The notes under the pieces: generated by a model
The model's input: the letters and a program-made list of their open reading frames with translations, nothing else
Told to the model about the DNA's origin: nothing
Database searches by the model: none
Shown: in pieces, positions 4,258 through 22,041 of the stretch
Numbering within the stretch: position 1 is the first letter of the stretch
How the letters are laid out: each line of letters begins with the position of its first letter
Made by a program: the position numbers and the translations under genes
Virus record (IMG/VR): IMGVR_UViG_3300044613_000878
Location: 1 to 22,575 of that record
DNA: 22,575 bases
DNA from: a virus
Direction: 5' to 3' (one strand)

Positions 4258-5357
4258 CGTACCTCCACTGTATATGCATCAACATAACCTGACGCGAGCA
4301 GCACGTCAAGCACCCCTTCAGGTACCCGCAGCGGGACGCCCTTGACAAACTTGTAGGTCTTGTCGGCGATGTCGCATTGGAGGCTGCGTTTCAAGGTGAC
4401 GTGATGCCAGAGGGTAGCCGTCTCGGTTGCAAGGTCGGTGAGCAGGGTTCCTGCGGGGAGGGTGTCTGCGAGTTGTCTGGCAGCCGATGTCCACGACCAT
4501 TTGCGAACCTCGGGCAGTTTGGCTTTCGCCCACGCCAGATAGGTGTTGTGGTTGGCGTACATTTCACGCATCGCCTCCGCCAACTCCCGTGGGTCGGTTT
4601 CATCCCAAGTGCCACCATAAATCGACGGTGACGGCTTATGGCTTAGAACGAACGGGGCGAGATGGGCGAAACCTTTCTGTCCCGAGGAGTCATTGAGAAT
4701 CGTTGGAATACCGCACGCCATCGCCTGCAACGGCATCAACCCGAAACCTTCGCCTCTGGTGATGGCGATGTAGCAGTCGGCTTGATGGAAGTAGTCGATG
4801 GTTTCTTGGTCGGTGAACCAGGCTCGGTGCATAAACACGTTGTCAGGCAACTTGAGGTCAGGTATGCCGTGTGCTTCAGGGTTGGGTTTGAGGTGGAGTT
4901 CGGCGTCAAGGTCAGCAAGTTTGAACGCCTCCAACACGATGTCCAACCCTTTACGCAACCACTGTGACCCGCCAGCATGGAACCTGAACCTGGGGTTGGC
5001 TGGTCGTTGTTTGGGTTTCCAAATCTTTGTGTCCACCCCCAACGGAACCTTATGCACATTCTTGTGATGTCGAGAAAACAACTCGACGTTATGGTCGCAG
5101 GGGACGATGATTTGGTCGTAGACGTTCATCCAGTCGATGAATCGTTGGTTGAGTTGGGTGGATTCCCACATCGTAAAACAGGCTCGCCACTGGTTCTTGT
5201 AGAACGTGTCAATTTGGTATGGCTGCATCATGTTCACCATGACGCTCGCATGTTCGTGCAACGTCACATCTTTGGGCACATGGTCCATGAACCCTTTGAA
5301 CATTGCACCGTACCCGTAGCGCGGGTGCGGATACCCCAACCAGGATTGGTGATTCAA
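4254..5357 (-). CDS. Family 4-type glycosyltransferase (GT-B fold) with C-terminal tail module
   Basis: The enzyme should transfer a sugar from a nucleotide-sugar donor to an unknown acceptor. The C-terminal Rossmann half is clear: PLGVDTKIWKP (105-115), FRFHAGGSQWLRKGLDIVLEAF (124-145, the usual 'xxGxxxxRKGxDxxLxAF' element), then ADCYIAITRGEGFGLMPLQAMACGIPTI (193-220). In the usual EX7E donor motif the first Glu is E203, but the second position is Q211. Beyond about 311 is an extension, with residues 333-359 (KTYKFVKGVPLRVPEG...LLASGYV) resembling small phage structural domains of the FluMu type. It starts with TTG, overlapping the upstream stop as TTGA. The N-terminal half is short but complete-looking. 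Placement among tail genes suggests it decorates virion or host-surface molecules; this is inferred. Confidence 0.82.
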   Translation of the reverse strand: MNHQSWLGYPHPRYGYGAMFKGFMDHVPKDVTLHEHASVMVNMMQPYQIDTFYKNQWRACFTMWESTQLNQRFIDWMNVYDQIIVPCDHNVELFSRHHKNVHKVPLGVDTKIWKPKQRPANPRFRFHAGGSQWLRKGLDIVLEAFKLADLDAELHLKPNPEAHGIPDLKLPDNVFMHRAWFTDQETIDYFHQADCYIAITRGEGFGLMPLQAMACGIPTILNDSSGQKGFAHLAPFVLSHKPSPSIYGGTWDETDPRELAEAMREMYANHNTYLAWAKAKLPEVRKWSWTSAARQLADTLPAGTLLTDLATETATLWHHVTLKRSLQCDIADKTYKFVKGVPLRVPEGVLDVLLASGYVDAYTVEVR

Positions 5358-5587
5358 TCTGCAATCTTCTCTAGTTTGGCTGACCCGTCAATCTTCGTTG
5401 GCTGCCCGCCAGTGCGACGGATGCGCTTGTAGGCATCCAGGTCTTTGTCTAACTGTTTCTCTTTGGCGTTCAAATGTTGGACGTTGTGGCGTGTTGGCAT
5501 CGCAGACCCAGACATGCGCACATGCGAAATGCGGCAAGCGAAACAGCCTTCAACGTCGAGTGTCGGGTGTGTTTCTGCGTGTTTCAT
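5354..5587 (-). CDS. Small CxxC/His protein, possible zinc-binding (77 aa)
   Basis: The N-terminus MKHAETHPTLDVEGCFACRI holds H3, H7, C15, C18 and H22, a plausible metal site. A charged helical region (NAKEKQLDKDLDAYKRIRR) and a flexible end (GGQPTKIDGSAKLEKIAD) follow. The 'HPxLxVxGCFxCxI' start looks familiar to me from small conserved proteins of actinobacterial phages, usually beside head or tail genes. The start follows AGGGGAAA, and the stop overlaps the TTG start of the glycosyltransferase. A role is not known. Zinc binding is inferred from residue spacing alone. Confidence 0.75.
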   Translation of the reverse strand: MKHAETHPTLDVEGCFACRISHVRMSGSAMPTRHNVQHLNAKEKQLDKDLDAYKRIRRTGGQPTKIDGSAKLEKIAD

Positions 5588-5593
5588 TTTCCC

Positions 5594-5878
5594 CTACGAA
5601 ATGTATGCGCCGTAACCTGCCGCGGTAAGACTAGCAACTTCATCAGCCGACACTTGATTATCCGTCCCACCCCAATACACCTTGGAGATGGTGGTGATGT
5701 CGTTCGGTTCGTTCTCCGTGTAGGTGCCGTTGGTGAGTAGGAACACGTTCCTACCGCGAGGTTCGGCATCGAAATGTTTGAACAGCGAATATGCCATCCG
5801 CGCCTCTTGGGAATCAAACTCCTTGGGCGGAATACCCAGAACCATGAAGTCATCGGTTGGTGGTCTAAAGATGCTCAT
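5594..5878 (-). CDS. Small protein sharing the C-terminal module of the repeat fibre (94 aa)
   Basis: Residues about 44-94 (NVFLLTNGTYTENEP ... VYWGGTDNQVSADE ... AAGYGAYIS) align without gaps to the last 51 residues of the 360-residue neighbour, with 27 identities by hand count. The N-terminal part (MSIFRPPTDDFMVLGIPPKE) is unrelated. The module 'NVxxLTxGxYT...I.K.YxGG...VxAxExAxLxAAGYGxYxS' occurs in phage appendage proteins as I know them, possibly as an anchoring or capping domain. Its ATG overlaps the stop of the 360-residue gene (ATGA), so the two are probably translated together and may sit in the same structure. Confidence 0.75.
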   Translation of the reverse strand: MSIFRPPTDDFMVLGIPPKEFDSQEARMAYSLFKHFDAEPRGRNVFLLTNGTYTENEPNDITTISKVYWGGTDNQVSADEVASLTAAGYGAYIS

Positions 5879-6957
5879 GAGACGTAATCACCATAGCCTG
5901 CTGCAACCAGGTCGGCCTTCTCTTCGGCGGTCACAAAGTTTTGGGAGCCGCCGTAATAAATCTTGGCAATCAGGTCATAGTCCCGCTGCTCGACAGTCGT
6001 GTAAGAACCGTCGGTCAGTTTGTAGACGTTGCTGCCTGCGTAGGTGGGTAGGGCATAGCGGAACAGGCGACCCGCAATCGACATGTCGTCACGGTCCGCT
6101 GCCGCAATCTCAGTGGTTGCAGGTGGGCGGAACAGCAGCAGTTTGACTGTGGTAGTGGACTCGTTGCTGGTGCCCGAAGCCGAGGCGGTGCGCTGTGCGA
6201 CACGAGCCGACACAATCTCCCTGCCACCCGTACCTGATGCTGTAGCGGTACGGAAACGGGTAATGAGACGTAGCACAATCGCCGCACCCGTTCCCGTGCC
6301 CGTGGCGGTGCGGGGTGCGATGTGTAGTTGGCTGACGCTCGATGCGCCTGTCCCCGAGGCGGTGCCCATGCGTGCACGGGTAACTGCGCCTGCAGCCGTC
6401 TGGGTGCCTGTGCCTGCGGCTGTGGCGGTGCGTGGCACGATACGAAGCCCTGTAGCGGTCTGGGTGCCCGTACCTGAGCCAGATGCGGTGAAGGCGCGGG
6501 TGACCACGCCAGACGCGCTAGAAGCCCCTGTGCCTGCGGCTGAGGCTGTACGTGGCGCGATATGCAAACCGACAGCACCACTCCCTGTGGTCCCTTGACC
6601 ACTGGCAGTGGCAGAGCGTGGGACGACACGCTCACCCTCAGCGGTCTGCGTACCCGTGCCAGTGGCGAGTGCCGTGCGCTTGGCAACCAGCACCGTAGTG
6701 GTCGATGATGCACCTGACCCTGAACCTGTCGCAGTACGCAGCGATAGAACTAGACGTTGCGCAGTTGACGACCCTGTACCTGCTGCTGAAGCAGTACGGT
6801 CAACGACGACTAGACCGCGATAGAAACCTTGCGTCGTCTTATAAGGAGAAGCGAAATAGACGACCTTGCGGTACGTGTAGTTCGGTACTTCTTCAAACTC
6901 TCGAAATCCAGGAGAGTCGGTGAACCCGAAACTGAAATCGGTGACTCCAGTAGCCAT
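5875..6957 (-). CDS. Repeat-containing fibre-like protein (360 aa)
   Basis: Residues 1-50 form a distinct head (VTDFSFGFTDSPGFREFEEV, PNYTYRKVVYFASPYKTTQG). Residues 54-264 consist of eleven repeats of the type R-T-A-[ST]-[AG]-[SAT]-G-T-G followed by a variable strand. The GxG element recurs at 60, 80, 100, 120, 142, 162, 182, 202, 222, 242 and 262: an exact 20-residue period with a single 2-residue insertion between the fourth and fifth. This suggests a regular beta-solenoid or trimeric beta fibre shaft. Residues 293-360 form a C-terminal module shared with the 94-residue neighbour. It is likely a thin tail or head fibre. It may vary in length between relatives through gain or loss of the 60-base unit. 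Confidence 0.75.
   Translation of the reverse strand: MATGVTDFSFGFTDSPGFREFEEVPNYTYRKVVYFASPYKTTQGFYRGLVVVDRTASAAGTGSSTAQRLVLSLRTATGSGSGASSTTTVLVAKRTALATGTGTQTAEGERVVPRSATASGQGTTGSGAVGLHIAPRTASAAGTGASSASGVVTRAFTASGSGTGTQTATGLRIVPRTATAAGTGTQTAAGAVTRARMGTASGTGASSVSQLHIAPRTATGTGTGAAIVLRLITRFRTATASGTGGREIVSARVAQRTASASGTSNESTTTVKLLLFRPPATTEIAAADRDDMSIAGRLFRYALPTYAGSNVYKLTDGSYTTVEQRDYDLIAKIYYGGSQNFVTAEEKADLVAAGYGDYVS
6166..6798 (-). repeat. Coding tandem repeat, 60-base unit (11 degenerate copies)
   Basis: This is the DNA under residues 54-264 of the fibre-like protein. Each unit encodes R(T/S)A(S/T)xxGxG plus 11-12 variable residues, and the spacing is 60 bases except for one unit of 66. The units are diverged in the variable half but keep Gly/Thr/Ala codons in the core. 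Such arrays can change copy number by slippage or recombination. Confidence 0.8.
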
Positions 6958-11851: not shown

Positions 11852-12639
11852 GCACCTCCGAACGCACGTTCAAACAGGTCAGCCAATGTACGGAAACCCT
11901 CAACCTGAACTTCTTCTTCACGACCACGAGTCACCGCCTGCGTAGCCAACGTGCCCAACGCTGGAGCCTGCTCCGTACCGTAAGCCGCTTGACGTTCACG
12001 TGCCTGGACAAACTGCACAGCCTCACGAACCTCTTGCGGGGTCATCGAACGACCTAACTGGCGGAACGACTCATCACGCAACACCGTCTGAATATCCTCT
12101 TTCGCCGTAACACGAACAGTACGCCCAGTGGATGCTTGACCGCCAGGGTATTCGTTCTTCAGATACGCCAAGCCGACATCTTCGGTCACACCCCAACGGT
12201 TCAACTCCAACAAATACTTTTGTGCTGCTTCCAAATCTTTGCCGTCAAACGTGGTAAGTGAAGGCTTACCGCCCTCATACAGACCGTAATCGGCAAGCGT
12301 GTTCAACAATGCGAGACGTTCACCGCGACCTTTGCTTGCCAAGAAACGGTACGCCTCAGTATCCAAGTTGTATGGGTCGTATGGTGCACGCTTGATGACA
12401 CCATTGCCGTCAACTAGACCTGGACCTTTGTAATACGTTTTGTTTCCACGCTGAACAAAGTACTGTTGGTTGTAATAATCTTGTGTGCCTGCAAGGGCGA
12501 GGGAACCTTGGGTGACGGGGCGTTCAGTGAACTGGAAATCTGCGCCCAACGAATAGCGTGGCACCCCAGCCGTACCTGTAGTGACGGTGGGCATCGGCTC
12601 AATGTCCACAATCGGTTGTGGTGTTGGCGTGTTGCTCAT
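11848..12639 (-). CDS. Virion-associated protein of unknown function (263 aa)
   Basis: A Pro/Thr-rich start (MSNTPTPQPIVDIEPMPTVT) is followed by a folded part (YYNQQYFVQRGNKTYYKGPG, YDPYNLDTEAYRFLASKGRG). Residues about 170-220 form a helical module (RVTAKEDIQTVLRDESFRQL, GRSMTPQEVREAVQFVQARE) that resembles the small helical segment found beside large internal proteins of actinobacterial phages. It ends LADLFERAFGGA. The gene lies between the 1560- and 588-residue genes and shares 4 bases with each. I do not recognise a catalytic motif. It is likely a partner or chaperone of the two large proteins, or a small internal protein. Confidence 0.6.
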   Translation of the reverse strand: MSNTPTPQPIVDIEPMPTVTTGTAGVPRYSLGADFQFTERPVTQGSLALAGTQDYYNQQYFVQRGNKTYYKGPGLVDGNGVIKRAPYDPYNLDTEAYRFLASKGRGERLALLNTLADYGLYEGGKPSLTTFDGKDLEAAQKYLLELNRWGVTEDVGLAYLKNEYPGGQASTGRTVRVTAKEDIQTVLRDESFRQLGRSMTPQEVREAVQFVQARERQAAYGTEQAPALGTLATQAVTRGREEEVQVEGFRTLADLFERAFGGA

Positions 12640-15600
12640 AGTTCGTCGACCTCTGATGCTAGTTCACGGTCCCACACTCTCTGGAAATCTGGGACAGCAT
12701 CCGCCAATGCGGTACCGATGTTGAACAGCCATTGACGCAAATCGGCTGCCTGTTTCGCTGTAGCGAACCCGCCTTCTTTACCGCCTGCTGCCACATATTG
12801 AGCGACGGCTTGGTCTCGATACGTCAAGTATTCGCGGGCTGCGCCAGCAATCTCATTGTTGACAAGCCGAGGGTCAGCGACAGCACGCTTCATTTCTCTA
12901 ATGTTGCGGTCAAACTCGCCAACCGTGAACACTGGTTTGGCTGGGAAACCAGGGAACTTTTTGTTGATGGTTTCACGTTGGCGACGCAACCAGTCTTTGA
13001 CTTCCGCGGGCGGATACTTGCCTGCTTGCCGTTTCAGGTCACGGTAGATGGCGTTACCGACACGGAATTGGGCTAGGTCAATCATCTCCGAGGCGGTCAA
13101 ACGTTCACGTTTCCCTGTGCGAATCTGGCGGTCCCACACGGAGAACGAGAAGTCGTCTCCACCTGGGGCGAAGTAGGCGCCAGTAAGCGGGAAAGCCTCT
13201 AGAACGGCACCGTTTTTGCGTTCCCATTCACCGAACTGTTCCGTAGCGGCAATACCAGGTTGCATGGCTTGGGTCTTTGACGAAATGTAGAGCAGGGCAT
13301 CATCGCCGTAGATGCGGAGGAACTCGCCCACTGCTGTGTCGTAGTTTGTGGCTTGCAAGTCTTGGAACGCTTTCAGCAGATACGAGGCGTAGATGTCACC
13401 CTTGTCGGTTTCGACGATGGCTTCTGGGGTTCCCGAGGTTGGTCCGAGGAACTGTGAAAGTGCACGGAAACCTGTGAGGACACGTGCCCGCCACTTGGCG
13501 TCTTGGAGGAGGCGTTCTTTTTCGGCTGGGTCTTCAAGGGTGTATTCGCCTGATGCGGCGAGTGCGCGTACGGTTTCGGTGTAGGTGTTGGCGTAGATGG
13601 ATTCGGTTTTCCCTGGATTGTCACGCAAAGCGGAATACACCTTGTTGACGTACCCAGGGACTAGTGCACCAGGCTTCTTTCTTCCGTAGGGCAGGAGGAA
13701 CTCGACGATGGCGTCGGTGGATGGGGTGTCTGGGATGAGTTCTGATGCTGCGATTTGGGCGACAGGTCCGATAGATGGGATGACTTGGAGACCCATCGAC
13801 AAGCCTTTGACTGGTGCCTGCAATGGTGCGTTGACGCCAGTAATTAGTTTCGAAAGGTCGCCTGAGAATGGGATGTTGAATGTGTTCTGTCCAGTAATCG
13901 GGTCCTTGTAGAAGAATCCTTGTCCGTCGTTGTCGGGGTCGAAGTTGACTGCACCGTTGTATACGAGTTGTGCGCGACGGATTCGGGTTGGGTCTTCGAC
14001 AAGGAATGAGCCGTAACGCTTCAACACTTCACGCCACGCAGGACCGAACGGGACAATGATTCGCAGGATGTCTTCGAGGTTGTTGCGTTCGACGGCGTTG
14101 AACAATGTTTCTTTCGTGTCGTTCAGGGCGCGGAGACCTGCGTAGTCTTCCAACTGTTTGACGGTGCCCGTGCCGTTAGCGGAGTCAAGTTTCGCTATAA
14201 GTTCGTCGTACTGTTTTTTGCCGCCGAACAATGCTTCTTTGCTGATGCTGAGTCGTGATGCGCGACCATCAATGGAGTCCTTGAACAGTTGTGCTTGTTC
14301 GCGTGTCAACAGGTCGGCGTTGTCGATGAACTGTTCGTAGTAGAACTGGCGGTAGATAGGGGAGCGTTCAAACTTGCGGCTTGCGGTTCCGTATGCGTTG
14401 TCGAAGAAGAAGTTGACGCCACGGTTCCACAACTGCAACGCTTCCTTCTGCCGACCCGTGATGCCCAACGCGTCCGCTTCGCCCAACTCTGGGGCGTACT
14501 TCACTCTGCTTGGCAGATTGTTGCCACGAGTTTCGTACACCTTTTTGATGTAATCCTGAAGTTCTTTTTGTCCGAGTGGGGTGTCCCATACGTCGTTGTC
14601 GGAGAGTCGGCGAACAGTCCATGAAGTGTCGCTGTTTACTGCGGTGACAACGCCACGGATGTCTTTGCCGTTTTCGACGCCGAGACGAACCTCGGAGCCG
14701 ACACCGCGACGCAGTGTGCCAGCAACGAAGTCGGCATCTTTCAGATTGCGTGGGTCAATGGTTTCTGATGTTGCCAATGGGAGGCGTCGGTGCGCGACAG
14801 CGAAACGGAGTGTCTCGTCGCCACCTGTGGTGAGGTCGATTCGTGGGTTGCCGAGACGGTTTATCCAACGTGCCAACACGTCATCGGTTACTTGACCTGC
14901 TGCAACACGAACACTGTGCATCCGTTGGGTGCCTGGGTCATAAACATCCAAGCCGCCTTCCAAATAGCGGCGAAGTCTGTCCAACGCTTTGACGGCTTTC
15001 GGGTCCTGGTTATTGCGCAACCAGGAAACAATTTCCTCTGTCGGGATACCTTTGGCGACAGCGTTGTTGATTTGGTCCAACGATAGACGGCGAAGTTCTT
15101 CATACATGCCTTTGAGGTATTGGGGTCGGTTGCTGACCTTGCTGACGGTGACCATCGAGTTGCTGCGAAGGGCACGCCTGTAGGTTGCTTCTGGGTCGTC
15201 GATGTTGCGACGCAACCCGAACGACAACGCTTCTTCAAAGTCGGAGGTGTATTCGTCCCAGTTCGCTGCGATTCTGGCGTAGTCTTCGTCGGCGAGGGCG
15301 CGACCAACGAAACTTTCGGGCAGGGTTTTGCCGAGAACGATTTGCATGTAGCGGATGGGGTGGTTGAAGAATCCTGTTTTGCCGACGGTTGCCATACGGA
15401 TTTGGGCGTCGAACATGTTGCGGAAGATGTAACCGCCAGTCATCAAGGTGAGCGGTTTCCACACTTCGTTTTGCAGATAGTCGGCAACGGTGATAGCGGC
15501 ACGTGATTTGCCTGCCCCGCGGATGAGTTGTCGTGGGGCTTCTTCGAGTGGTACGCCCGCGGCAACAGCGGCAGCGGATGGGACGTCAGCGAACTTGGCT

Positions 15601-17318
15601 TGCTTGGATAGTGCGCGACGGATGAACGGGTTTGCGGTGACGCGACGTACGGCACGCAGGTCGGGTAGGACTTGGATTTTGTCGGCAAGTTCAGCAAGCG
15701 AACCTGGGCCAGCGAGACGTAAATCTGCAAGGGTCGCAGGGTTCAGGTCGCCATCGAATACGAGTTGGCCTGAGTCTTTCAATGATTGCAGCAAGCCGAA
15801 GTCGTCGATTTCGCCTGCTTCGTTGATGAGGTAGAGGCGTAGTTCTTCTCGTGCTTTGGCGACACGTTGGAAAAGTTCGTTGGCTACTTCGTCAGCGTCG
15901 GCTTTGACGAGCGCACCGAAACCTTTGCTGAGTTCGTCGGAGACGGTTTTCTTGACAATCTTTTCGAACACTTGGTTGACGCGTCCTGAGCCTGCGGCGT
16001 TCGGGTCAGCGAACACTTCCATGACTTCTTGCATGAACTCTTTGCCTTCTTTTTCGGTGAGTTTGAGTCCGATGGACTTCAGGTAGTTTCCGTACGAGTT
16101 GACGGCTGCAACCGAGTCGCGGCTGGTTCCAGTTTTGATGACCATTTCTGGCATCTTTGTCAACAGTTTGCTGTTGCGAAGGTTGTTGTAGACAGGGATT
16201 CGTTCGCGGCGTTTGACGATTTCGCGGATATCGGTTGGGAACAAGCCAGACAGTTCGGCATCCATGCGGTTGGTTTGTTCACCGATGATTGCCAACACTT
16301 CTTCTCGGCTCTTGGCTTTCGCTAAACGATTCGCCTCCGAAACGTCAATCTTCCCTTTGAACACGTTCGAGAAAATGTCGTACGCATCATCTTTTTCAAC
16401 GAGCATGTTGACGAGACGTTGAGCCTTGCCGTTTGTTTCTACCCAGTTGCGGAACTTGGATGCGTTCCATGCGACCATCTCGCCGTCGGACAAACCTGCT
16501 GCTGCGAGTTCGCCTGCGCGAGCAACTTTGGCGAACGCCGCAATCTCATCAGCGGTCTGAATGACAGGTATTGCTGCTTTGCCTGCACGGGCAGCCGCAA
16601 GAACTTTGCCGCCGTAAAGGGTTGGGTCAGCAAAAATTGCTACCGAAGCATCAACCAAACCAGACAATATGTTGTACGGCTTAGACCCAGGAGCGAACAC
16701 CACATCTGCTGCACCGCGACCCAACGTCCACGCAGAACCGTTGATAGTGCCACGCACACGACGCGCACGCTCAGACTGCTTCTCTGCGGCGGTACCACCC
16801 ATGAAGAAACCTTCACCAGAAGTAATCGCTTGACCAGTCGCAGGGTCAACCTCACCCTTCGCGGCAGCAAGCATCGTGCCGAGCGACGTCGACTTGAACC
16901 AGCCATCAAACCCTTGCGGATTGTCCCTGTTCAAAAGTTGTGACGAAACGTTTTGCACCAACTCGGGAGCAAGATTCAACGTTGCGAACGTGTAACGCGA
17001 AGCCGCTTTGATTGGGTCATAGACGTTACGTTCAAACCAATTCTTCTTACGTGGAGGATTCGGGTCCAAACGTTGCGGCAACTGCTTACCCGACTGCGCA
17101 GACGCAGCGTTCACCAACTGGTCCGATGCACCCGCTTTTGCTAACGCAAGAATCTCACCAGGTTTCATCCACGGATTCGCACGATAAATCTGTCCGATAC
17201 GCGCCGACAAATCAGGTGTAGCAAGAGCAGCAGCCTGCTCACGAACCTTGTTCTTGGATTCAATCCCGCTAAGGATTACATCCTCGTCAGCCTTTTCTGG
17301 CAACACCCCGAAGGACAT
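12636..17318 (-). CDS. Giant internal virion protein (1560 aa)
   Basis: This single open frame takes up about one fifth of the window. It is mostly helical, with Ala/Arg/Lys-rich stretches. Notable blocks: WFERNVYDPIKAASRYTFAT early on; a Gly-rich and hydrophobic part (about 160-270); MTGGYIFRNMFDAQIRMATV near 626-645; a small beta domain near 880-930; PFGPAWREVLKRYGSFL near 1090; a hydrophobic GVNAPLQAPVKGLSMGLQVI near 1165; and KPGALVPGYVNKVYSAL near 1213. No lysozyme, protease, RNA polymerase or ADP-ribosyltransferase motif is recognisable by eye. Its place between portal and scaffold is where many phages encode a MuF-type or ejected protein. The hydrophobic blocks would suit a membrane-crossing ejection protein, but this is inference. 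Confidence 0.7.
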   Translation of the reverse strand: MSFGVLPEKADEDVILSGIESKNKVREQAAALATPDLSARIGQIYRANPWMKPGEILALAKAGASDQLVNAASAQSGKQLPQRLDPNPPRKKNWFERNVYDPIKAASRYTFATLNLAPELVQNVSSQLLNRDNPQGFDGWFKSTSLGTMLAAAKGEVDPATGQAITSGEGFFMGGTAAEKQSERARRVRGTINGSAWTLGRGAADVVFAPGSKPYNILSGLVDASVAIFADPTLYGGKVLAAARAGKAAIPVIQTADEIAAFAKVARAGELAAAGLSDGEMVAWNASKFRNWVETNGKAQRLVNMLVEKDDAYDIFSNVFKGKIDVSEANRLAKAKSREEVLAIIGEQTNRMDAELSGLFPTDIREIVKRRERIPVYNNLRNSKLLTKMPEMVIKTGTSRDSVAAVNSYGNYLKSIGLKLTEKEGKEFMQEVMEVFADPNAAGSGRVNQVFEKIVKKTVSDELSKGFGALVKADADEVANELFQRVAKAREELRLYLINEAGEIDDFGLLQSLKDSGQLVFDGDLNPATLADLRLAGPGSLAELADKIQVLPDLRAVRRVTANPFIRRALSKQAKFADVPSAAAVAAGVPLEEAPRQLIRGAGKSRAAITVADYLQNEVWKPLTLMTGGYIFRNMFDAQIRMATVGKTGFFNHPIRYMQIVLGKTLPESFVGRALADEDYARIAANWDEYTSDFEEALSFGLRRNIDDPEATYRRALRSNSMVTVSKVSNRPQYLKGMYEELRRLSLDQINNAVAKGIPTEEIVSWLRNNQDPKAVKALDRLRRYLEGGLDVYDPGTQRMHSVRVAAGQVTDDVLARWINRLGNPRIDLTTGGDETLRFAVAHRRLPLATSETIDPRNLKDADFVAGTLRRGVGSEVRLGVENGKDIRGVVTAVNSDTSWTVRRLSDNDVWDTPLGQKELQDYIKKVYETRGNNLPSRVKYAPELGEADALGITGRQKEALQLWNRGVNFFFDNAYGTASRKFERSPIYRQFYYEQFIDNADLLTREQAQLFKDSIDGRASRLSISKEALFGGKKQYDELIAKLDSANGTGTVKQLEDYAGLRALNDTKETLFNAVERNNLEDILRIIVPFGPAWREVLKRYGSFLVEDPTRIRRAQLVYNGAVNFDPDNDGQGFFYKDPITGQNTFNIPFSGDLSKLITGVNAPLQAPVKGLSMGLQVIPSIGPVAQIAASELIPDTPSTDAIVEFLLPYGRKKPGALVPGYVNKVYSALRDNPGKTESIYANTYTETVRALAASGEYTLEDPAEKERLLQDAKWRARVLTGFRALSQFLGPTSGTPEAIVETDKGDIYASYLLKAFQDLQATNYDTAVGEFLRIYGDDALLYISSKTQAMQPGIAATEQFGEWERKNGAVLEAFPLTGAYFAPGGDDFSFSVWDRQIRTGKRERLTASEMIDLAQFRVGNAIYRDLKRQAGKYPPAEVKDWLRRQRETINKKFPGFPAKPVFTVGEFDRNIREMKRAVADPRLVNNEIAGAAREYLTYRDQAVAQYVAAGGKEGGFATAKQAADLRQWLFNIGTALADAVPDFQRVWDRELASEVDEL

Positions 17319-17668: not shown

Positions 17669-19423
17669 TTATCCCCCGAGTTGTGCGAGTAGAGCATCTA
17701 ACGGCGGTGCGCCAGCAGGACCAGCCACAGGTGCCTCAGCACCCATACCTGGCATCGCTAACCCTGGCATCGTCTCAGGGGAACCCTGCGGCATTGCTTC
17801 GGCTTGACGTTGACGGGCACGCTCATCAGTTTTCGCCACAGCCTCAAACAACGGAACATCCTGCTCCACAACAAGACGAGTCAAATAGGCGAGGTCCTCT
17901 GGCTGGTATGGGCCTTGCGGGTTCGCAGCCTGCTGCTGGATAGATGCGAGCAGGGCGTCTTCGACGCCTTCTGCGATGATGCGGTCATGCTCAAAATCGG
18001 GGTCCGAAATCAGCGGGTCAGCCTCACGAGCCGACTCTTTCGACATCAAACCAGTACCAAGACGCTGCCCTAAACCGATAATCAGGTTGTTGACGTCGGT
18101 GCCAGCAGCCGAATATGAAACGAAGTGGTAGTCGGTCTGCCACACCTTCATCGGCGTGTACGTTTCCTGTCCCTGTGTCATACGACCAGACATGAAGAAC
18201 GTCTTAGGTTGAGAACCCCAATAGGATTTCTCTAATGCGATTGCGATTTTATCCTCGTGGAGTAACGAGTTGGCAAAGATTTCTTGTGCTTCTTGTACAC
18301 GGTAATCCACGGTCGCAGAAAGAACGGCTTCGCCGCGGCGACCAGTTCGGATATTGGTTGCGGACTCTCCGCCGAACTCGGCGGGTATCGCGCCTTCAAG
18401 ACGTTCTTGGCGCTCCAAACGGTCGAGGGCTGTGTCGGTTTTGTAACCAGGATTTAGTTGCAACTGCTGGATGTCGCCACCTTTGACAACACCAAGGATG
18501 CCTGACTTGCCGTCAGCCATCTGCAAGATTTCAGGATTCTCACCAGGACGAGCAATCAAATACTCCTCGGGAAAGATGCCGCGCTCGATAGCAATTTCGG
18601 TCAACGCCTGCAAACGTGCACGCGTGTAGTACATGCCGAGCACACCGTCGAATTGTCCTCGCGGTTTATCGAGGGTGATTCGTTGAGGGACAACGGCAAG
18701 TGGCATACCTGTGCGATTCGGGATGGCTTCCAACAGGATTGCTTGCAACCCTGCACGTTCAGACGCGGACAACTCGGGATTGTCTTCTGCACCCAACACG
18801 ATGAGTTGCATCGAATCATCACACACATACTCAAGGAGGGTGTAGCGCGAGTCGGAATCAACGCGACCGAAACGCAACTGGTTAGAAACCAACTCTCCGT
18901 AGTTCTTCAACAGCCATGAGGCGGTGACGCGTGACGTGAAGATGCAGTTCTCTGGAACCACATCGTCATCGTCCATTGGTGCGGCGAACGTGTCCAACGG
19001 ATTGCGAACCTGCCACTTAGGAGTCAACGTCGCAAAGTCGGGCTTCAAAAACACAGGCGATGACGAGTATGCGAGAAGGTGGCGTGCGCGGCGACGCAAC
19101 TTCATTTGCATGCGGTTCTCATCCCAGAAACCGAGCATCGCTTTCTTGCGCATACGCGCATACTTCTTGGCGTTCTCGGACCCTTCCTTCACAGGAGGGA
19201 AGTATGGGTTCGGCATTGTCGACGACACGCGCATCGACATCTGTTCCAACCCTTGTACGAGCAGGTTGGCGACGTTAGTTTTCGCGTTGCGGTCTAACTC
19301 GTTGAGTGGAACCACGACGTCGCCGTTGGCAAGGTCGCGCACGCGACGCATCTGCTCATGCACGGGGCCAGCAGCGAGTCGGCGCTGATGGTACAGTTCA
19401 ACGATTTCGTCTAGCGAGCGCAA
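17669..19423 (-). CDS. Portal protein (584 aa), TTG start
   Basis: The portal forms the dodecameric ring at the packaging vertex. The assignment rests on position after the large terminase, size, and sequence: MRSLDEIVELYHQRRLAAGP start; TNVANLLVQGLEQMSMRVSS (about 49-68); TMPNPYFPPV; a helix-rich clip region; RTGRRGEAVLSATVDYRVQE (363-382); and a C-terminal crown-like part IGLGQRLGTGLMSKESAREA followed by DPLISDPDFEHDRI (about 450-483), which is typical of phage portals. The last 60 residues are Met/Pro/Gly-rich. The first possible start after the preceding stop is TTG at 19421-19423, with GGGAG upstream. No ATG is available before codon 25, and the duplicated fragment at 19684-19761 keeps the same TTG, which supports it. 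Confidence 0.85.
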   Translation of the reverse strand: MRSLDEIVELYHQRRLAAGPVHEQMRRVRDLANGDVVVPLNELDRNAKTNVANLLVQGLEQMSMRVSSTMPNPYFPPVKEGSENAKKYARMRKKAMLGFWDENRMQMKLRRRARHLLAYSSSPVFLKPDFATLTPKWQVRNPLDTFAAPMDDDDVVPENCIFTSRVTASWLLKNYGELVSNQLRFGRVDSDSRYTLLEYVCDDSMQLIVLGAEDNPELSASERAGLQAILLEAIPNRTGMPLAVVPQRITLDKPRGQFDGVLGMYYTRARLQALTEIAIERGIFPEEYLIARPGENPEILQMADGKSGILGVVKGGDIQQLQLNPGYKTDTALDRLERQERLEGAIPAEFGGESATNIRTGRRGEAVLSATVDYRVQEAQEIFANSLLHEDKIAIALEKSYWGSQPKTFFMSGRMTQGQETYTPMKVWQTDYHFVSYSAAGTDVNNLIIGLGQRLGTGLMSKESAREADPLISDPDFEHDRIIAEGVEDALLASIQQQAANPQGPYQPEDLAYLTRLVVEQDVPLFEAVAKTDERARQRQAEAMPQGSPETMPGLAMPGMGAEAPVAGPAGAPPLDALLAQLGG

Positions 19424-19426
19424 GGG

Positions 19427-19675
19427 TTACATGCTCCCGCGACGAAGACCGCCTCCGCGCATAAAAGACTTCATGCCTTCGACAAGGGAGCGGGTGCCAA
19501 ACTCTGCGGTGCGACCAGATAAATAATCTTTGTGGGTTTGCGCTTGACTTGTTCCGCCAAGTGTCGATTGCCATTTGCCTGCGTGCATGTACTCAACACG
19601 CCATTCACCTGGAGCGGGTGGGCCTTGTACGGGTGGTGTTGGCGTCTGATTGGAAGTCTTCTTCTTAGCACGCAT
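19427..19675 (-). CDS. Small protein, second copy of a pair (82 aa)
   Basis: The N-terminal part is Pro-rich (KKTSNQTPTPPVQGPPAPGE) and includes WRVEYMHAGKWQSTLG. The C-terminal part (KDYLSGRTAEFGTRS, EGMKSFMRGGG) matches the 90-residue neighbour at 22 of 28 positions by hand count. The N-terminal parts of the two do not align. The start codon and 42 bases before it are identical to those of the other copy. It stops 3 bases before the TTG of the portal. The function is unknown. The pair sits between terminase and portal, so a role in head assembly or packaging is a guess from context. Confidence 0.72.
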   Translation of the reverse strand: MRAKKKTSNQTPTPPVQGPPAPGEWRVEYMHAGKWQSTLGGTSQAQTHKDYLSGRTAEFGTRSLVEGMKSFMRGGGLRRGSM

Positions 19676-19717
19676 AGTGGTTCTCAGGATAACACATCAA
19701 ATCCACGAAGGGCGCCA
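19673..19717 (-). repeat. Exact 45-bp direct repeat, copy 1
   Basis: This is identical over 45 bases to 20041-20085. It holds the start codon and leader of the 82-residue gene and, further upstream, a relic of the last codons and stop of the terminase gene (WRPSWI then TGA), here without the rest of that gene. Confidence 0.95.
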
Positions 19718-19761
19718 CATGCGTGGTGATACAGTTCTACGATTTCGTCAAGCGACCTCAA
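19684..19761 (-). pseudogene. Portal 5' fragment fused to a terminase tail relic (25-codon frame)
   Basis: After the stop of the 90-residue gene, TTG at 19759-19761 opens a frame reading (M)RSLDEIVELYH, the exact first 12 residues of the portal. After these, HACGALRGFDVLS comes from crossing into the terminase-end repeat in another frame, then TGA. Against the resident portal, codons 2, 4, 8, 11 and 12 differ (6 bases in all) and every change is synonymous. A good ribosome binding site (TAGGAG) lies before the TTG, so a 25-residue peptide could still be made. It is a relic of a second portal gene. Confidence 0.85.
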
Positions 19762-19770
19762 AGGTGGCTC

Positions 19771-20043
19771 CTATTTTCCAGTAATGCGACTACCGCCACC
19801 ACCGCGCATGTAACTTCGCATACCTTCCAATACGGAACGAGTACCAAACTCAGAGGTGCGACCAGAAAGCGAATCTTTTGCGGCTCTTTGATATGCGGCT
19901 GTTTCTTTTCCATACGGACCAAAAATGTCACCTGATTGCACTTGCACGTATGCTTTTCCGCCACGCAAAAAATATCGGTCCCTGTGTATTTCGTCGTCGA
20001 GGTCGCCAGATTTCTTTTTGTTGTTTGTGCGGTTCTTGGCCAT
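19771..20043 (-). CDS. Small protein, first copy of a pair (90 aa)
   Basis: The protein starts MAKNRTNNKKKSGDLDDEIH and continues RYFLRGGKAYVQVQSGDIFG, PYGKETAAYQ, ending with KDSLSGRTSEFGTRS, EGMRSYMRGGG and SRITGK. The last third is closely similar to the 82-residue gene downstream, while the first two thirds are different. The charge is basic overall. It lies 21 bases after the terminase stop and would be the original position of this gene between terminase and portal. I do not recognise the family. The shared C-terminal part (LSGRTxEFGTRS..EGMxSxMRGGG) is probably the functional core. Confidence 0.75.
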   Translation of the reverse strand: MAKNRTNNKKKSGDLDDEIHRDRYFLRGGKAYVQVQSGDIFGPYGKETAAYQRAAKDSLSGRTSEFGTRSVLEGMRSYMRGGGGSRITGK

Positions 20044-20085
20044 AGTGGTTCTCAGGATAACACATCAAATCCACGAAGGGCGCCA
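20041..20085 (-). repeat. Exact 45-bp direct repeat, copy 2
   Basis: This copy is in its natural setting: the last seven codons of the terminase (including the TGA at 20065-20067), the short intergenic leader, and the ATG of the 90-residue gene. It matches 19673-19717 at all 45 positions; the next base differs. Confidence 0.95.
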
Positions 20086-22041
20086 TAGGCGCGGCGGAGC
20101 CTTCACTGGACCCAACTCTGGCAGGTGCAGCATCGCAAACCAGGCTGCCATCACCAAGTCGGTACCGTTCTTTTTGTTCGGTGTCCATGATGCGAGTTCT
20201 TCTACGAAGGCGAGAGTCTTCCAGTTTTCTCTCATGGTTGGCATCCGTATCTGGCCTGTGCGGAACAGGTTGGGGAGGAGTGCTTCGACGCCAAGGTTTT
20301 CGTCTAGTTTGTTTCTGGAGGTTGTATGAGGGATGACGTTGACCCCGTGAAGGGCTTGCCACTTGCGAACGAAATCGTGAGCAAGGAGGAAGCGTTGAGC
20401 GGCGTTGACTTCGACTATCCAGTGGCTGATGGGGTAGCCCATATCGAACGACCTGTTTTGCCAAATCTCCATTATTCCGCCGTACTCTCGGCTAGAGGTA
20501 TCAAAACCAAGTAGTTCCTCAGCGGTAAGTTTGGTTCGTTCGCAGTCAATCAAATAACGCAGGTTGGTTTTGGGTTGGTAGAGCCACCATTGGATAGCCC
20601 AAAAGTTTGTGGGTGACGGGTCTACGGATGCAACCGAAATGATTGGGGGTTCCAGGTTGGATGGGATGTATCCAGGTCTGCGGTCATTGTCAATACACCC
20701 TGGGTACAACACACCGTCAGGTCCCATGCCGCCTGTAGCCCAGACACGTTCAATCAGATAGTTACCTTGCGCCATGTCCTCTTGCTGGTAGATGACTTGG
20801 AACTTGGCAGGCGTTGAGTGTTTCAGGTACGACAAGTCTTTCCACGACAGGCGGTACGGGTCCAGGAGTGGTCCGTTGGGCCACGGGGGTGCAGTAGTTT
20901 TCTTAGATTCTCTGCCCGTATCCAATTCTTCGTAGTAAGCCTTGTAAATAAAGTGGGTGTACTTGGATTTTTTTTCTGGTTCTTGGACGTCGGAAACGTC
21001 GGTGACGTCGGACCCGTCGTACGCGTCAGGGTCCTCCTCGTAAGTCACTTTGGCGAGACAGTGGGCGTAGAGGTCACCTGGCCCCAACCGCTGCCCGATG
21101 ACAGCCAGCAAGCCACCTGGGTCGACGCGTGCCTCAGCGACGGTATCCCACCGTTCCAAAAGTTTGTCGCGGGCAACGGACTCTTTGGCGTTCTCTGGGG
21201 TTGCCACGTCGTCGAACAAACAGAGGTCGGCACGATGACCGATGAACTCTGAGTCAATACCATACGACGACACCGTAGGTTCCTTGTTATCCAAACCCGA
21301 CAAATCTTCTTGCTCAACGATGAACTCCTCGGCACGCCACAACGCACCAGACGATGACGGTTTGAAACGCCCATAGTCGATAGAGAGGCAGCCTTCGGCG
21401 TTGATAGCCAACCCTTTCTCCACAAGAATCGGGTCAGGATGCAAAGGAAACGGACGTTCCAACGTTTCACGAATACGACGGCTATACATCTTCGCCAAGG
21501 TTTGTGTAGCCGAACCGATAAGTACACGAATCTTGCGATTCCTTACAATCATCCAACATGCGAAGTCATGAAACAGTGTCGACTTGCCTGCTCCTGGGGG
21601 ACAGTTGATGAGAATGAACTCTTTCTCTGGCGATTCCAGCATCTTGACAATTTTGTACGCAGCATCTACCTGCCACGGGCTAGGAACACGCCCCAAATAG
21701 CGTCGACGGAAGTAATCAAAATCATCCCAACCCCTCTGCGCCTCGGGGCTAAGACGCTCATAGGGGATGACAGGTGGCAAATCTGCGACATCCATCGCAT
21801 GTTTCCACTGCTCCGCCTGTACACCACCCTGCTTTTTGCGAACCTGACCGACCTCTACCTCAGCCAACTGGATTTCGGCGGTTGCTTTACGTCGTTTCGC
21901 TTCCCATCCTGATGCAGTGTTGGGGTGGATGCCAGCAATTTTCGCCGCATCTTGTATGGACATGCCTGCTGCACGGGATTGCCAGTAGCGGGCTACGTCT
22001 TGTGGCGGGATTTGCCGCCTCCCCGAACGACCAGCAGGCAT
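20065..22041 (-). CDS. terL: Terminase large subunit with N-terminal helix-turn-helix (658 aa)
   Basis: This is the ATP-driven DNA packaging motor and nuclease. Residues 24-50 form a helix-turn-helix (AAGMSIQDAAKIAGIHPNTA, SGWEAKR) of the kind found in small terminases. The ATPase follows: Walker A CPPGAGKST (147-155), Walker B LCLFDD (273-278, acidic D277/D278), and a coupling-like VIGQRL (314-319). The RNase H-like nuclease has probable metal ligands D474 (ASVDPSP), E544 (IVEVNAAQ) and D628 (NGTDLVMAAW). An acidic low-complexity insert lies at about 336-356. No separate small terminase is in the window, so the fused domain may do that job. The ATG follows the stop of the 88-residue gene by 3 bases. 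Confidence 0.92.
   Translation of the reverse strand: MPAGRSGRRQIPPQDVARYWQSRAAGMSIQDAAKIAGIHPNTASGWEAKRRKATAEIQLAEVEVGQVRKKQGGVQAEQWKHAMDVADLPPVIPYERLSPEAQRGWDDFDYFRRRYLGRVPSPWQVDAAYKIVKMLESPEKEFILINCPPGAGKSTLFHDFACWMIVRNRKIRVLIGSATQTLAKMYSRRIRETLERPFPLHPDPILVEKGLAINAEGCLSIDYGRFKPSSSGALWRAEEFIVEQEDLSGLDNKEPTVSSYGIDSEFIGHRADLCLFDDVATPENAKESVARDKLLERWDTVAEARVDPGGLLAVIGQRLGPGDLYAHCLAKVTYEEDPDAYDGSDVTDVSDVQEPEKKSKYTHFIYKAYYEELDTGRESKKTTAPPWPNGPLLDPYRLSWKDLSYLKHSTPAKFQVIYQQEDMAQGNYLIERVWATGGMGPDGVLYPGCIDNDRRPGYIPSNLEPPIISVASVDPSPTNFWAIQWWLYQPKTNLRYLIDCERTKLTAEELLGFDTSSREYGGIMEIWQNRSFDMGYPISHWIVEVNAAQRFLLAHDFVRKWQALHGVNVIPHTTSRNKLDENLGVEALLPNLFRTGQIRMPTMRENWKTLAFVEELASWTPNKKNGTDLVMAAWFAMLHLPELGPVKAPPRLWRPSWI

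Follow-up and report, generated by a model that had tools for sequence, protein, structure and literature searches.

The window analyzed here is the whole 22,575-nucleotide stretch of the virus record IMGVR_UViG_3300044613_000878, an uncultured phage known only from metagenomes, and the gap between its terminase and portal genes raises a question of origin: how did a phage come to carry the order terminase end, small gene, portal start twice in a row? The slot genes, the terminase and the portal all lie on the minus strand, where the terminase is followed by two small genes, B (90 aa) and A (82 aa), with 12 portal codons and then a second terminase end between them, and last by the complete portal (Table 1). 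We conclude, with a probability of about 0.85, that recombination left this arrangement as a scar in an exchangeable slot between the terminase and portal genes, with B and A derived from different sources.

The repeated order had been pointed out in a preliminary description of the sequence, together with the reading that the first portal copy is cut to 12 codons and joined to a second terminase-end relic. Both points were confirmed. The terminase-end and leader repeat is 54 bp long, and its first 45 bases on the plus strand are identical. The portal start is repeated at 19386-19427 and 19724-19765 (83% identity), and the C-terminal parts of A and B form a 93-nt repeat (71% identity in the alignment). 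The stub of the first portal retains a GGAG ribosome-binding-like motif and a start codon, and the 25-codon open reading frame that it opens stops 8 nt upstream of gene A. Downstream of the portal, the window encodes a 1560-aa protein (12636-17318) with weak profile matches only.

Table 1. Positions of the features at the terminase-portal slot of the window, and of nuclease genes in the slots of two relatives.
Feature	Record	Positions	Strand	Remark
Terminase large subunit, 658 aa, left slot flank	window	20065..22041	-	PHROG phrog_38, E 2.9e-63
Terminase end and leader, repeat copy 1, extending to the gene B ATG	window	20041..20094	-	94% identical to 19673-19726
Small slot gene B, 90 aa, class-2 tail GGGGSRITGK	window	19771..20043	-	98% identity to L002's only slot gene
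Foreign portal-start relic, 12 codons, peptide MRSLDEIVELYH as in the resident	window	19726..19761	-	6 silent differences
Junction, microhomology CACCA (portal start / L002/L007-type terminase end)	window	19724..19728	-
25-codon chimeric ORF: 12 portal codons, then out-of-frame terminase-end relic	window	19684..19761	-
Second terminase end and leader, repeat copy 2	window	19673..19726	-	19 nt from CACCA are an exact match to the L002, L007 and L008 terminase ends
Small slot gene A, 82 aa, class-1 tail GGGLRRGSM	window	19427..19675	-	tail and spacer 87-89% to L007, L018, L006
Resident portal protein, 584 aa, right flank	window	17669..19423	-	PHROG phrog_104, E 2.7e-19
Endonuclease VII (PF02945)-type gene	L013 slot	about 5510-6000
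Endonuclease VII (PF02945)-type gene	L017 slot	about 4290-4820

Two portal starts, their donors and the join

The relic and the resident portal start encode the same peptide with different codons. The relic reads TTG AGG TCG CTT GAC GAA ATC GTA GAA CTG TAT CAC and the resident reads TTG CGC TCG CTA GAC GAA ATC GTT GAA CTG TAC CAT. The six base differences affect five codons and are all silent, in agreement with the preliminary description; six random changes in 36 nt would all be silent with a probability of about 8.5e-5. That description took the synonymy to mean that the relic came from a portal diverged under selection in a different phage. The conclusion holds because relic and resident match two outside donors, but synonymy alone would also permit an in-place duplication followed by change in the resident.

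We found B-type genes immediately upstream of complete portals in two relatives, L002 and L003. The portal starts closest to the relic are those of L020, L002 and L003 (1, 2 and 3 of 38 bases differ, respectively), and these differ from the resident at 5-6 bases. In L007 and L008, in contrast, an A-type tail and spacer are followed by a portal start that differs from the resident at 1 of 38 bases and from the relic at 5. Relic and resident therefore come from different lineages. The match to L002 covers B and relic together (98.1% over 320 bp, with an identical run of 257 bp; flanks 74-90%) and drops on both sides, to 74% in the last 200 bp of the terminase and to 80-89% in the portal. The tail of gene A and the 30-nt spacer before the portal are common to L006, L007 and L018. 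Two classes can be distinguished among these sequences: class 2 combines the tail GGGGSR-I/L-TG-K/R with the portal start AGG-TCG-CTT, and class 1 combines the tail GGGLRRGSM, the shared spacer and CGC or CGT as second portal codon. Judging from these combinations, each class travels as a unit. The relic follows a class-2 gene and the resident a class-1 gene, the pattern to be expected had each portal start arrived together with its own gene.

The preliminary description named as support a relative in which the 90-residue gene directly precedes a full portal with the relic's codons, as well as relatives with a single small gene. L002 represents the former, its B gene being 98% identical and its portal start 2 of 38 bases off, and relatives were found to carry at most one tail gene, except for the nearly identical record L091. 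Far from occurring in all close relatives along with both small genes, which was to count against the proposal, the relic is present in no relative but L091. Searches of viral contigs for the exact relic and for the exact second terminase end matched L091 only, and the exact donor portal start was found in no record apart from L091. Cultured phages gave no DNA match and only distant portal matches (about 24%), and no portal relative was found in host genomes.

The nearest relative of the surrounding backbone is L012, which is about 94-99% identical in terminase and portal and has an empty slot of 24 bp. Only at the edges of the slot does identity to L012 fall further, to 86% in the last 14 bp of the terminase and 89% in the first 38 bp of the portal. 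The last 200 bp of the terminase are 97.5% identical to L012 and L013, and the resident portal is 97% identical to L007 over its first 38 nt and 100% identical to L012 over the following 37 nt. The second terminase end opens with CACCACGCATGTGGCGCCC, as in L002, L007 and L008, and is L013/L040-like thereafter. Complete portals read CACCAG onward and those terminase ends read CCACCACGC, which places the join within CACCA. The join thus has a short sequence shared by both partners, and an overlap of at least 5 bp would arise by chance with a probability of about 0.005.

The terminase-portal slot across relatives

We compared 114 distinct terminase-portal regions. The slot is empty (about 20-55 bp) in 62 of them, it holds one tail gene in 10, and the tandem represents a single type; the remaining regions contain small genes of other kinds, long proteins or genes of the Endonuclease VII type. 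A scar calls for single-copy states among relatives, and both the single-tail and the empty slots provide them. All confirmed loci of a scan for the tail (13/13) lie in the terminase-portal slot. Counted as minimum changes on a FastTree portal tree, without inferred direction, slot states changed at least 26 times among 101 records (at least 18 times between empty and filled) and at least 11 times among 29 close relatives in the tree (at least 7 between empty and filled). The 24-bp slots of L012 and L014 are identical and the first 40 bp of their portals are 98% identical, with measured flanks at 73-91%; the empty allele is exchanged too. By these comparisons, the contents of the slot between terminase and portal are actively exchanged, and the scar is one event there, which records how viruses splice pieces of their relatives at one busy exchange site. 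A literature search for a hypervariable terminase-portal gap returned nothing specific.

In more distant relatives (L033-L036, L042-L051, L177, L178 and L180), the slot holds one long, mostly basic protein of 359-1126 aa; these proteins gave no useful match to Pfam or PHROGs. The slot protein of L016 (231 aa) has an N-terminus weakly common to that of L033.

Origin of the tandem

During co-infection or in a concatemer, codon 12 of the portal of a B phage would have been joined to the terminase end of an A phage at CACCA, leaving B and A in tandem, separated by a portal stub and a terminase-end stub. This block would have entered an L012-like backbone by exchange, its edges falling within roughly the last 14 bp of the terminase and the first 38 bp of the portal. 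The simplest account is that a B-slot phage and an A-slot phage underwent an illegitimate cross at CACCA, combined with homologous exchange at the block edges. The product could stay viable, since both small genes and the portal are intact. The preliminary description had proposed a frozen unequal crossover between co-infecting relatives. Its scar reading stands and the donors were found, but one crossover of whole genomes is insufficient. We rejected such a single crossover on the terminase flank, which is unlike that of the B donor L002 (74%) and like that of L012/L013 (97.5%). Given these L012/L013-like last 200 bp of the terminase, an additional exchange at its edges must have brought the block into an L012-like backbone. 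Moreover, the second terminase end is a mosaic (19 nt L002/L007-like, then L013/L040-like), so at least one further exchange is needed; the order of events is not fixed by these data.

Both scar formation by microhomology and mosaic exchange have been described before (PMC9391042, PMC3945230, PMC2327257). In the segmental duplications of T4 (PMC9391042), tandem copies of small genes likewise form via short matches and one match is left between them; here, however, the units come from different phages, there are only two of them and no laboratory selection was applied. The relaxed homologous recombination of temperate phages (PMC3945230, PMC2327257) also yields exchanged segments bounded by short diverged homology, but it swaps allele for allele, whereas here both were kept with a stub between them and no recombinase was identified. 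It is rare that one natural recombination event in uncultured phages can be traced, as here, to close donors and a recipient backbone, with its join placed exactly.

The tandem may instead have begun within one phage lineage, as an in-place duplication of the segment from terminase end through small gene to portal start, whose downstream copy was later exchanged for an A-type allele by ordinary homologous recombination. This reading agrees with ours on the scar and departs from it on the direct cross. L002 has both partners of the join (the CACCACGCATGTGGCGCCC terminase end and the AGG-TCG-CTT portal start) and microhomology is known to produce tandem duplications in T4 (PMC9391042), but the scheme needs one step more than a direct cross of B-slot and A-slot phages, and a B-B tandem was not found among the 114 regions. 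We consider it possible but doubtful.

Homing could act as the driver of exchange: a free-standing Endonuclease VII-type nuclease would cut empty or differently filled slots, repair would import the contents with short flanks, and the tandem would be a by-product. Terminase neighbourhoods are known sites of homing nucleases (PMC10448857), and F-CphI is a homing enzyme with an Endonuclease VII motif (PMC6083498). Across 17 records, PF02945 genes occur in the slots of L013 and L017 and nowhere else. The portal of L013 is 78-79% identical to that of the window over bases 38-150 and 94-99% identical over the remainder, as co-conversion would leave. This reading is compatible with the scar; nevertheless, it would account for drive at the slot and not for this particular join, the L013 and L017 nucleases are putative cutters, and the window carries no Endonuclease VII gene. 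Since no Endonuclease VII domain was found at its slot, the locus does not qualify as a free-standing homing locus of the F-CphI/Endonuclease VII type, and we judge homing an unlikely explanation of the tandem. Like the nuclease genes that bound exchanges near terminase genes (PMC10448857), the slot is an accessory site beside an essential terminase that sometimes holds a homing-type nuclease; in contrast, the slots here mostly contain basic proteins, small or long, or are empty, and the nuclease belongs to the Endonuclease VII type.

An assembly artefact is very improbable. Co-occurring B and A strain variants, each of which exists singly in nature, would have been joined via the terminase-end repeat, and its exact 45 bp could in principle mislead an assembler, which leaves a small doubt. 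Stub and terminase end share no more than 5 bp at their join, however, too little for an assembler to invent. Furthermore, the record IMGVR_UViG_3300002835_005521 (L001/L091), 99.7% identical to the window, has the same arrangement with 0 differences in the slot and 44 over 14,883 bp, which makes a one-off error unlikely, although the two records may come from related samples. Their 44 differences are clustered in short tracts separated by long identical stretches, suggesting recombining strain variants.

Finally, an old functional arrangement, in which the stub (with its GGAG motif and start codon) and the 25-codon frame ending 8 nt before A couple the translation of two needed small genes, is scarcely credible: it is confined to two nearly identical records and relatives manage without one or both genes.

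Proteins encoded in the slot

Neither A nor B matched Pfam or PHROG profiles. The conserved C-terminal tail of the family spans about 25-34 residues and is under purifying selection (dN/dS mostly 0.06-0.35). Bodies and tails are reassorted: L003 and L018 share a body and differ in tail class, as do L007 and L020, and the body of gene A resembles that of L155 (E 8e-5), a distant relative with another tail. The preliminary description held that the two small genes are alike in their C-terminal parts and unlike in their N-terminal parts; we observed this pattern, and the N-terminal difference reflects swapped bodies under a conserved tail rather than the divergence of one gene.

Slot proteins are basic whatever their sequence or length (pI >9 in 49 of 50; median 10.55), and the product of the gene after the portal is acidic (pI >9 in 4 of 96; median 5.0). 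Basic charge and position together suggest that these proteins act in the head or close to it. A structure prediction for B from a 12-sequence alignment suggested a three-strand body and a tail helix, at a confidence too weak to interpret (mean pLDDT 60; pTM 0.37). We tentatively view the slot products as basic accessory proteins produced together with those of the head; within the tail family, the conserved tail would perhaps keep a shared role while the body varies. It is distinctly less likely that they form a combinatorial family of basic, virion-associated accessory proteins in which the tail docks to a shared head or portal partner and swappable bodies act on different host targets, so that the tandem phage would carry two payloads. 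The internal proteins Ip1-Ip3 of T4 (PMC12373910) are likewise accessory proteins that vary, are non-essential and keep one terminal part conserved. In T4, however, the signal is N-terminal and packaging has been demonstrated, whereas here the conserved part is C-terminal. No T4-type N-terminal capsid-targeting signal was found in the slot proteins, whose basic MAKK-type start is a short shared leader only.

These results point to a slot next to the packaging genes at which exchange recurs, and to a small-protein family absent from Pfam and PHROGs, with a conserved tail and swapped bodies. They make it testable what the tail binds and why the slot is so often emptied and refilled. One pair of relatives also differs by loss within a body: L008 (3424-3666) corresponds to L007 (639-1046) with an in-frame deletion of 55 body codons, and the two are otherwise nearly identical, with the tail intact.
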